Source of the DNA: Chitinophagaceae bacterium
GTDB taxonomy: Bacteria > Bacteroidota > Bacteroidia > Chitinophagales > Chitinophagaceae
Reading direction: 5' to 3'
DNA: 39,543 nt
Assembly (NCBI GenBank): GCA_004299085.1
Contig: SCQV01000164.1
Span: 1 to 39,543 of the forward strand
Shown here: positions 1 through 30,079 of the stretch, piece after piece
Layout of the letters: each line of letters starts with the position of its first letter
Position numbering within the stretch: the stretch's first letter is position 1
Notes under the pieces: generated by a model
Seen by the model: only the letters and a program-made list of their open reading frames with translations
Told to the model about the DNA's origin: nothing
Databases searched by the model: none
Position numbers and translations under genes: made by a program

Positions 1-141
1 GCATTTGTAACATTTATTTCATTTCTTAACGCCATCCGCTTAAATTTTCTTAACGCATTTTTTATGATGCCGCAAAAACCAAGCATCGGATTAAAATACT
101 GTCATTTTCAAAGAACTTGTCCCGGTATCCCGGGAAATTAA

Positions 142-361: not shown

Positions 362-397
362 CTAAAAAGCCTCGTACCAAAGTATGAGGCTTTTTAG
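362..397 (-). terminator. Rho-independent terminator of tRNA-Leu(CAA)
   Basis: A near-perfect inverted repeat with arms AAAAAGCCTC and GAGGCTTTTT is separated by 12 bases. It starts at the base after the tRNA 3' end on the minus strand. The A/T ends let it act as a terminator in both directions. Confidence 0.85.
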
Positions 398-481: not shown

Positions 482-569
482 AATGTTCCTGCTATCTCTT
501 AAAAGAATCTTTTTTCTAAAACTATTAAACTAATTTTATCGAATCTCGTACTCCCTTGTGAGAACCAGA

Positions 570-591
570 CCTGCCTGCCGGCAAAGACAGG
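570..591. repeat. Palindromic repeat unit inserted in tRNA anticodon loop
   Basis: A 22-bp imperfect palindrome (CCTGCCTGCCGGCA followed by AAGACAGG) sits precisely between the tRNA-derived segments AGAACCAGA and TTTTGAGTC. It is related to the units at 616-635, 34443-34461 and probably 38904-38925. Confidence 0.8.
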
Positions 592-615
592 TTTTGAGTC
601 TGGCGCATCTACCAG

Positions 616-635
616 CCTGCCTGTCGGCAGACGGG
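616..635. repeat. Palindromic repeat unit inserted in tRNA D-loop
   Basis: A 20-bp imperfect palindrome (CCTGCCTGTCGGCAGACGGG) interrupts the D-loop sequence between CTACCAG and TTCCGCC. Its orientation matches the copy at 570-591, and it too is followed directly by TT. Confidence 0.8.
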
Positions 636-797
636 TTCCGCCACCCGGGCAGTTATTTATAAGGCTTTTTAAAAGGCCTATTATGAACCCTTCACCCGAA
701 ACTTCAAAAGAGGCGCAAAAATAAAGAAACTTACTAAACTTTCAAACTTGATTTAGCCCTGACACATTATTGAACCCCGGGGTTTCTTCGTACAACG

Positions 798-6866: not shown

Positions 6867-6874
6867 TACCTTTG
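6867..6874 (+). promoter_or_regulatory. -7 box (TACCTTTG) for the cobalamin-riboswitch mRNA
   Basis: TACCTTTG is a perfect TAnnTTTG match. It ends four bases before the first P1 base of the riboswitch at 6878, so the transcript should begin at the riboswitch itself, leaving a leader of about 320 nt before btuB. Confidence 0.7.
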
Positions 6875-6877
6875 CGC

Positions 6878-7068
6878 CTGTTAAGGTTTTTTCTTTGCCA
6901 ACAGGCATAGAAGATGAAAAGGGAACCGGGTGCAAATCCCGGACATTACCCGATGCTGTAATCTCTATAAATGCTTTGGCTACCTCAGCCACTATTTTAA
7001 TGCTGTTTTCAGTAGGAAATGGGAAGGCGGGCCAAAGCAGGAGTAAGTCAGAAGACCTGCCTCAACAG
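6878..7068 (+). promoter_or_regulatory. Cobalamin (adenosylcobalamin) riboswitch
   Basis: The segment carries the conserved cobalamin riboswitch blocks in order: GATGAAAAGGGAA, CCGGGTGCAAATCCCGG, ACATTACCCGATGCTGTAA, GGAAGGCGGGCCAAAGCAGG, and the B12 box AGTAAGTCAGAAGACCTGCC. The outer P1 helix is supported by CTGTT (6878-6882) pairing with AACAG (7064-7068), plus GG/CC just inside. It lies upstream of a BtuB-type receptor, the standard target in this phylum, so cobalamin should repress uptake when plentiful. No clear intrinsic terminator follows. Positions 7069-7201 hold two CATCCATGTTTTT-like repeats and a small GAATTATAAATTC palindrome, so control may act on translation. Confidence 0.93.
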
Positions 7069-7201
7069 TTGATTATGCCATAGCTTCCGGGATCAGAAGC
7101 ATGCATGCAGCATCCATGTTTTTTATCCATGTTTTTCTGCATCGCTGTTACCTTTCCGGGGTTATGAATTATAAATTCATTAACCTCTTAATTGTTTTCA
7201 G

Positions 7202-29137: not shown

Positions 29138-30079
29138 ATGACAAAAATTACTACTCAAAAGAAGATTACGATTGGCCGGTTTATTGACCCGCTTTCTGAT
29201 TTCGGCTTTAAACGGTTGTTTGGAACGGAGCCTAATAAGGATTTATTGATTGGTTTCCTGAATGAAATATTTCATGGCAAGAAAGTGATTGCCGACCTTA
29301 TTTATAATAAAAACGAACAGCAAGGTCCAAGAATGGGCAGTCGCAAGGCTATCTTTGACCTTACCTGTACCGGTAAAGACGGTGAGCAATTCATTATCGA
29401 AGTGCAACGTATTCGTCAAAAGTTTTTTAAGGATAGAGCAATTTATTACGCATCGAGACTTCTCCATGATCAGGCGCCAAGGGACAGGGATTGGGATTAT
29501 TCATTAAAAGAAGTTTACTTTATTGGTCTGATGGATTTCACGTTAGATGATTCGGATAGAGATAAATATATACATCATGTACACCTGACCTATAGCAATT
29601 CAAATAAAGTTTTTTATGAGAAGCTTGAATTTATCTTTATTGAAATTCCTAAATTTGTGAAGGCAGAGACGGAATTAAATACAGGAATGGACAAGTGGTT
29701 ATATGTCCTGAAAAATATGAGCAGTTTAAATAAAATTCCCGTAATTTTGAATTCAAGGCTTTTTATAAAGTTATTTAATATTGCATCTGTTTCTAATCTG
29801 AAAAAGGAGGAATTTATGAAATATGAAAAAGATTTGATGGCCGCATGGGATGAATATGCCATTAAGAAAACGTTGTTGGAGGAAGGCCGGGAAGAAGGCA
29901 GAGAGAAAGGTAGAGAAGAAGGTAGAGAAGAAGGCAGAGAGGAAGGCAGAGAAGAAGGTAAGGCCACAGTGGTAAAGAATCTTATTACTAAGATGGGTAT
30001 GACGGATGCTCAGGTAGCAGACATTGCAGAGGTATCTATAAGTTTTGTAAAGAAAGTACGTCAAAAGGTCAAAAAGTAA
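29138..30079 (+). CDS. Rpn-family (PD-(D/E)XK) recombination-promoting nuclease/putative transposase
   Basis: The 313-residue protein is the Rpn/TIGR01784 type. It begins with GRFIDPLSDFGFKRLFGTEPNKDLLIGFLNEIF. The nuclease core is RKAIFDLTCTGKDGEQFIIEVQR, with Asp74 and Glu88-x-Gln90, and RAIYYASRLLHDQA follows. The tail has seven four-residue EEGR/EKGR units (248-275) and a final helix-turn-helix-like segment (MGMTDAQVADIAEVSISFVKK). The E. coli relatives RpnA-E promote RecA-independent recombination and cut DNA. In Bacteroidota these genes are multicopy, though no insertion-sequence ends are visible here. The DNA of the tail is a 12-bp tandem repeat and so prone to length change. Confidence 0.9.
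   Translation: MTKITTQKKITIGRFIDPLSDFGFKRLFGTEPNKDLLIGFLNEIFHGKKVIADLIYNKNEQQGPRMGSRKAIFDLTCTGKDGEQFIIEVQRIRQKFFKDRAIYYASRLLHDQAPRDRDWDYSLKEVYFIGLMDFTLDDSDRDKYIHHVHLTYSNSNKVFYEKLEFIFIEIPKFVKAETELNTGMDKWLYVLKNMSSLNKIPVILNSRLFIKLFNIASVSNLKKEEFMKYEKDLMAAWDEYAIKKTLLEEGREEGREKGREEGREEGREEGREEGKATVVKNLITKMGMTDAQVADIAEVSISFVKKVRQKVKK
29879..29962 (+). repeat. 12-bp in-frame tandem repeat (seven units)
   Basis: Seven units of the type GAAGAAGGCAGA encode EEGR/EKGR within the Rpn gene. Gain or loss of units keeps the frame, so slippage would change tail length without breaking the protein. Confidence 0.8.

Follow-up and report, generated by a model that had tools for sequence, protein, structure and literature searches.

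What is the broken tRNA-Leu copy that lies beside an intact tRNA-Leu(CAA) gene in a Chitinophagaceae bacterium (GenBank assembly GCA_004299085.1), and how did two short palindromes come to sit inside it? The copy occupies positions 538-650 of the window, that is, the whole stretch of 39,543 nt that we analysed (contig SCQV01000164.1, positions 1 to 39,543, forward strand). The original prediction, made from this sequence alone, saw in it a tRNA copy struck twice, independently, by a mobile mini-palindrome. Our analysis, which extended to the source genome of the window (G000; 625 contigs, 4.98 Mb) and to other genomes (the labels G, C and L denote genomes, contigs and loci), points to something larger: 538-650 is probably the displaced 5' piece of a tRNA-Leu(CAA) gene invaded by a cassette that brought a GIY-YIG nuclease gene together with a replacement tRNA; the hairpins may break the sites of the nuclease. 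That prediction had missed the GIY-YIG gene, a second broken piece on another contig (C463) and the fact that the layout recurs at other tRNA genes.

The tRNA origin of 538-650 stood up well. With the insert at 570-591 taken out, the joint differs from the intact gene by 2 mismatches in 32 nt, and with that at 616-635 removed by 1 in 32 (Table 1); both insertions are clean, and the former abuts the anticodon-loop bases CTCAAAA (minus-strand reading). As had also been proposed, the piece does not look like a working tRNA, since ARAGORN and Rfam (gathering score) both made no tRNA call at 538-650. Because the inserts are palindromes that would each extend a loop, one might conceive of the interrupted gene as still yielding a functional RNA with longer loops; this is most improbable given the missing 3' acceptor strand, the degenerate T-arm, the absence of a call and the existence on C463 of a counterpart without 5' end for which both programs likewise made no tRNA call.

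The 3' acceptor strand is indeed absent from 538-650 but it was not simply lost, because the 3' piece is present on C463. That piece has kept the T-arm, the 3' end and the terminator-like hairpin, its 5' acceptor strand is gone, and it carries inserts at both of the positions occupied in 538-650 (the D-loop one degenerate). Therefore, the two insertions need not be the independent events that had been suggested. Directly before this 3' piece lies the end of a GIY-YIG gene whose start is in the window; the start is 61% and the end part 60% identical to the nuclease of G354, a genome from a different genus. The order in G354 is two tandem 5' pieces with D-loop palindromes, an intact tRNA-Leu, a GIY-YIG gene of 79 residues and a 3' piece with a palindrome at the identical anticodon-loop point. 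Among open reading frames of at least 50 codons outside tRNA sequence, the G354 block contains only this nuclease and no integrase. G000 appears to share this layout, split by a contig gap and with a damaged nuclease gene. As read from the sequences, the order of the block is thus 5' piece, intact tRNA, GIY-YIG gene and 3' piece, in G000 over two contigs. In relatives compared through a neighbouring gene (8 loci, Chitinophaga and Thermoflavifilum), which place G000 with the Chitinophagaceae, no tRNA adjoined that gene and hence none offered an empty site.

Table 1. Coordinates of the tRNA-Leu(CAA) block in the window and on contig C463 of the source genome.
Feature	Position	Strand	Extent or remarks	Basis
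5' piece of tRNA-Leu(CAA), probably displaced	538-650	minus	tRNA positions 1 to ~70; T-arm degenerate, 3' acceptor strand missing	
D-loop palindrome, 20 nt	616-635	no strand	CCTGCCTGTCGGCAGACGGG	sequence, pattern search, empty-site comparison
Palindrome at 3' edge of anticodon loop, 22 nt	570-591	no strand	CCTGCCTGCCGGCAAAGACAGG	sequence, pattern search, empty-site comparison
Intact tRNA-Leu(CAA)	397-481	minus	read as replacement copy	ARAGORN, Rfam
Terminator-like hairpin 3' of intact tRNA	364-395		near copy behind 3' piece on C463	seen in sequence
5' part of GIY-YIG nuclease gene	127-279	minus	residues 1-51 of 79, ended by stop	
End of GIY-YIG nuclease gene	G000:C463:7178-7306	minus	residues 37-79; then 3' tRNA piece	
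3' tRNA-Leu piece	C463:7023-7144	minus		DNA search of G000

The association between small GIY-YIG genes and split tRNA genes recurs far beyond this locus. An order-wide search matched the GIY-YIG query in 165 of 396 genomes, and we compiled 137 loci (30 from 17 chosen genomes, 27 new ones from the order-wide search and another 80 places that it matched), which are best hits and not a random sample and include two from G000 and some overlapping windows. A tRNA gene lay within 300 nt of the GIY-YIG gene in 108 of the 137, representing 23 anticodon types. Same-strand partial tRNA copies (ignoring any that overlapped an ARAGORN tRNA) occurred near the nuclease gene in 101 of 137 loci; within 700 nt they measured at least 16 nt in 98 loci and at least 20 nt in 87. 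Under the same rules, 35 control tRNAs (27 in 20 stretches picked from the 39 tRNA places of G000, plus 8 tRNA-Leu genes of relatives) had partial copies in only 4 (at least 16 nt) and 1 (at least 20 nt) cases. GIY-YIG genes were absent from the 20 control tRNA loci of G000, and only 1 of 30 Y1-transposase loci, another control, had a tRNA, as did 1 of 102 palindrome loci, the window itself. A phylum search with a different query matched 132 of 296 genomes, and among 30 of the resulting loci a tRNA was found within 300 nt in 23 and partial copies in 21. Two loci of other genomes of the phylum (L346 and L355) contain tandem arrays of at least five GIY-YIG units, which in L346 alternate with tRNA-Leu 3' pieces.

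The pieces follow a nearly fixed order. After dropping L192 and L194 (which overlap L180 and L183) and pieces covering fewer than 13 tRNA positions, 67 of the 5' pieces were upstream of the intact tRNA and 3 downstream (two of these being a single place in L187 that counts for two tRNAs), and all 79 3' pieces were downstream, with none upstream; 18 near-complete copies (15 of them downstream) and 16 middle pieces were uninformative on order. Counted per tRNA, nuclease and tRNA shared a strand in 140 of 142 cases. Such a near-fixed order is expected if DNA bearing a complete tRNA entered a tRNA gene, and not from random duplication, and we consider it likely that the tRNA gene was invaded by a GIY-YIG cassette bringing its replacement.

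Invasion may have proceeded differently, with the hairpin-bearing pieces acting as functional ends (tRNA flank, hairpin, tRNA flank) at which the nuclease or a host enzyme excises the block or inserts it, always at one tRNA position, and with insertion into the inner tRNA producing nested arrays. Of the 17 loci that have both kinds of piece, the 5' and 3' pieces overlap in 12, and both can share one hairpin at one place (G000 and G071). Their numbers are equal in 11, mostly one of each, with three of each in G071 (L183) and two of each in L259, as nesting predicts. Nevertheless, 5' and 3' numbers are unequal in the other six (2+1 in L174 and in L213, 3+1 in L254, 2+4 in L275, 3+2 in L289, 4+3 in L302) and in L346 (1+5), many loci have pieces on a single side, and no excision product was seen, which makes functional ends an unlikely account. 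The unequal numbers imply that tandem duplication also acts.

The nuclease itself is small, with a conserved active site. All three representatives examined matched PF01541 (E 6.3e-16 to 2.5e-18), and in an alignment of 101 proteins the columns that we take to be the GIY-YIG catalytic ones were nearly invariant (Y in 98, Y in 101, G in 99, R in 100, H in 101 and E in 101). The clades of these proteins follow tRNA identity: on a tree of 101 sequences, from which we left out nuclease fragments shorter than 60 residues, sequences with stops, identical ones and those with no tRNA within 300 nt, the tRNA label required 43 changes compared with a shuffled mean of 73.5 (0 of 200 shuffles as low), although the tree, built on 78 columns, is poorly resolved and near-copies contribute to the signal. 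The gene is thus found where a homing endonuclease is expected, next to its cognate target gene, both by its proximity to tRNA genes in 108 of 137 loci and by this coupling of clade to tRNA identity. Searched against 50,697 phage and 72,556 plasmid records, the 79-residue query found no match at E 1e-5, and NCBIfam held no family for any of the three representatives.

Hairpins occur in the displaced pieces, at positions in the D-, anticodon- and T-loops. With duplicates discarded, and only inserts of 8-60 nt with a small tRNA gap accepted, 62 unique clean inserts in 45 loci remained. As many as 54 of them touched a tRNA loop, in agreement with what had been proposed from the window alone, against 35.4 expected (p 3e-7, uncorrected for shared ancestry); when only one insert per identity and position was counted, 29 of 36 did so against 20.7 expected. 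Their stems averaged 6.8 bp, compared with 4.6 bp in shuffled sequences, and for 30 of the 62 at most 2 of 50 shuffles were equally hairpin-like. In the T-loop, touched by 21 inserts, 11 can be placed directly 3' of GTTC. The hairpins vary: CCTGCC...GGCAGG adjoins Leu and several Arg genes; CCCGCCCGGCTGACGCCAGTCGGACGGG adjoins Arg(CCG/CCT), is present in 6 of 14 genomes and in G029 occurs also away from tRNA; and TCCGCC...GGCGGA takes the place of one half of the anticodon arm in many tRNA-Met pieces from several families, though not in all such pieces, and is found elsewhere as well in G435 and G028.

Three loci of tRNA pieces had no nuclease gene. In L315:489-978 (G000:C607), the intact tRNA-Thr(GGT) gene is preceded upstream by five partial copies of its 5' part. 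Four of these form a tight tandem; in the copies the anticodon arm is turned into a palindromic hairpin, and the locus has no GIY-YIG gene. L319:918-966 is a piece of tRNA-Gly(GCC) whose anticodon arm is palindromic, and at L327:828-930 two tRNA-Leu(TAG) 3' pieces have the T-loop swapped for a sequence known from dispersed repeats.

The two inserts of the window belong, as proposed, to one palindrome family dispersed in the genome. Allowing up to 3 mismatches, the 20-mer CCTGCCTGCCGGCAGGCAGG was found at 31 places of G000 and the 22-mer CCTGCCTGCCGGCAAAGRCAGG at 77, with no occurrence of either reversed pattern, and the 20-mer consensus matched once in the window and never in 100 shuffles; shuffles and reversed-pattern controls exclude chance or artefact as their origin. 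The 20-mer was present in 74 of 147 genomes, including G000, and the reversed control in 3. With slightly looser limits, we counted 109 copies in the fetched loci, roughly one per 45 kb. Most 20-mer copies are outside open frames of 100 codons and a few inside; many copies appear, by eye, at fixed points of other dispersed repeats, and their 3' flank is often TT, also by eye, with the clustering of flanks too loose for any consensus motif. For 29 of the 109 copies, an empty counterpart (up to 5 mismatches in 32 nt, several exact) existed in the fetched DNA, supporting the past mobility suggested earlier, and none of these 29 showed a target duplication. Window positions 14-45, for instance, correspond with 0 mismatches over 32 nt to the empty form of a repeat into which the palindrome is inserted at G000:C439:16121 (L095), and at L010:723-763 (G000:C407) two adjacent palindromes lie within an open frame of 650 codons or more without closing it.

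What moves these palindromes bears on two further explanations. A tandem tRNA-Leu duplication might have left a pseudogene that caught two REP-like palindromes mobilised by a RAYT/Y1 transposase, an idea with which the REP-like size of the palindromes and the presence of Y1 transposases (8 matches in G000; 106 of 147 genomes) are compatible. However, no GTAG or CGTC tag was found within 8 nt 5' of either arm in any of the 109 copies, where chance alone would give ~8.5, and Y1 matches are absent in G042 and G077, with 7 and 9 palindromes, and marginal in G015 (E 8.9e-5; 30 palindromes) and G020 (E 4e-6; 33 palindromes). The distribution over genomes consequently does not support the Y1 transposase as the mover. 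This scenario, which leaves both the nuclease and the fixed order of the pieces unaccounted for, is disfavoured and seems to us very improbable.

A less remote alternative is that the displaced pieces are neutral junk and the nuclease unrelated to their inserts, a loop-seeking palindrome moving through single-stranded DNA (like REP or IS200/IS605) having been retained in dead copies and purged from working tRNAs. The dispersal of the palindromes, their precise insertion without target duplication next to empty counterparts, the frequency with which tRNA loops are hit and the hairpins of pieces with no nuclease gene nearby would all be accommodated. Outside tRNA pieces, though, the general preference for loop-like sites that had been suggested vanished: in G000, 31 of 91 non-redundant joints fell in predicted hairpin loops, as did 325 of 910 random points. 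Moreover, the four inserts (one degenerate) in ~235 nt of tRNA-Leu pieces far exceed the genomic density, and the single TCCGCC...GGCGGA stem, with varying loops at one place in many tRNA-Met pieces, is easier to reconcile with inheritance or selection than with new random hits. We regard neutral junk as possible but rather unlikely.

For the proposed invasion of the tRNA-Leu(CAA) gene by a nuclease cassette, we envisage the following sequence of events. The nuclease would cut uninvaded copies of its own tRNA gene, and repair from a cassette-bearing chromosome would copy the whole block in; the intact tRNA would keep the cell alive while the old halves stayed at the edges of the block. Hairpins may have been recruited from the dispersed mobile palindromes of the genome. 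By breaking the recognition sequence, for example just 3' of GTTC in the T-loop, they could render the pieces uncuttable, and by lowering homology to, and recombination with, the intact tRNA they could prevent the block from being cut again or looped out. That hairpins persist in the pieces because they break both nuclease recognition and this homology is an idea to which we would give slightly less than an even chance.

Several observations weigh against this scenario. No tRNA was found within 300 nt in 29 of the 137 loci, and only 45 of the 101 piece-bearing loci had a clean insert (replaced arms, e.g. in tRNA-Met, being uncounted); 8 of the 62 inserts touch no loop and 32 are not clearly more hairpin-like than their own shuffles. 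In G000, the pieces of tRNA-Thr, Gly and Leu(TAG) without nuclease gene may be relics or point to a second route, and the tRNA-Leu block is spread over two contigs whose join we infer. In G001, the only congener that the searches included, an intact tRNA-Leu stands alone at the locus; this agrees with an uninvaded site, though as a single case. Cutting, homing, movement of the block and the role of the hairpins are likewise what we infer from sequence. The nuclease would be expected to target the intact tRNA within the block as well, which leaves the immunity of the block unexplained. Finally, the common ancestry of the loci and their choice as best hits make the p values too good.

Elsewhere in the window, a cobalamin riboswitch (Rfam; 6867-7078) lies upstream of a 648-residue open reading frame that resembles, by eye, a TonB-dependent receptor, and a 12-bp tandem repeat (29879-29974) is close to the end of the open reading frame 29138-30079.

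More broadly, and tentatively enough that we would lean against it at present, these blocks may represent minimal mobile elements that form a class across the phylum Bacteroidota and specialise on tRNA genes, made of a nuclease of ~80 residues and a spare target tRNA between the halves of the victim gene, with hairpin-capped loops; the hairpins would be integral to them, as immunity marks or recognised ends, and repeated insertion into the inner tRNA would generate nested arrays. If the invasion reading is right, the tRNA genes of a major bacterial phylum are repeatedly invaded by a tiny selfish gene whose survival depends on supplying the very tRNA it breaks, a bacterial counterpart of the phage nuclease SegB. 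Dozens of small nucleases would become available whose target specificity could be read tRNA by tRNA, and the role of short dispersed palindromes could be addressed directly, as the loop positions predict cut sites. For annotation, tRNA fragments adjoining small GIY-YIG genes may mark element boundaries.

How do these blocks compare with known systems? Integrative elements insert in a tRNA gene and restore a complete tRNA at their attachment sites. Unlike them, the G354 block has no integrase and holds a whole replacement tRNA inside, which speaks, for this block, against an integrase-bearing element of this kind. Rickettsia palindromic elements are mobile palindromes able to land in genes, longer and with an in-frame habit; those studied here are 20-22 nt long and untagged, such that the kinship suggested by the original prediction failed on both size and CGTC tag. 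RPE-4 and RPE-6 correspond to CGTC-tagged families (PMC3733652). REP sequences, tagged by GTAG or CGTC, are, like our palindromes, dispersed hairpins of 20-40 bp in many copies (PMC3733652); unlike them, ours carry no such tag and their presence does not clearly follow Y1 transposases. Group I introns also invade bacterial tRNA genes, including at the anticodon loop, and are mobile by homing (PMC3984707). Rfam at gathering score detected no group I intron in 13 loci, and with no intron fold there a mobile intron was rejected; the blocks need no splicing because an intact tRNA is supplied.

We file the recurrent layout as a variant of the free-standing homing endonucleases. Open-licence PMC papers, as far as their accessible text goes and with subscription papers and preprints outside the search, yielded no description of bacterial blocks of GIY-YIG and tRNA genes with hairpin-bearing tRNA pieces. 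The closest known relative whose action has been described is SegB of phages T4 and T6. This free-standing GIY-YIG homing endonuclease belongs to the phage tRNA region and makes its cuts within tRNA genes, 23 of 83 sites showing the motif RAWTSGAAC; it also drives the tandem amplification of units made of a tRNA plus the nuclease (PMC13096335). In both cases the GIY-YIG gene adjoins tRNA genes, and by our own comparison the reverse complement of the SegB motif, GTTCSAWTY, resembles the T-arm sequence GTTCGAATC, so that the motif corresponds to the T-arm, in which several of our hairpins are located. SegB belongs to phages, whereas the genes described here are in bacterial genome assemblies. 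The SegB neighbourhood favours no particular tRNA isotypes (PMC13096335); in the bacterial blocks, by contrast, nuclease clade is coupled to tRNA identity, the tRNA gene is split, a replacement copy lies inside, and hairpins occupy the loops of the displaced pieces.
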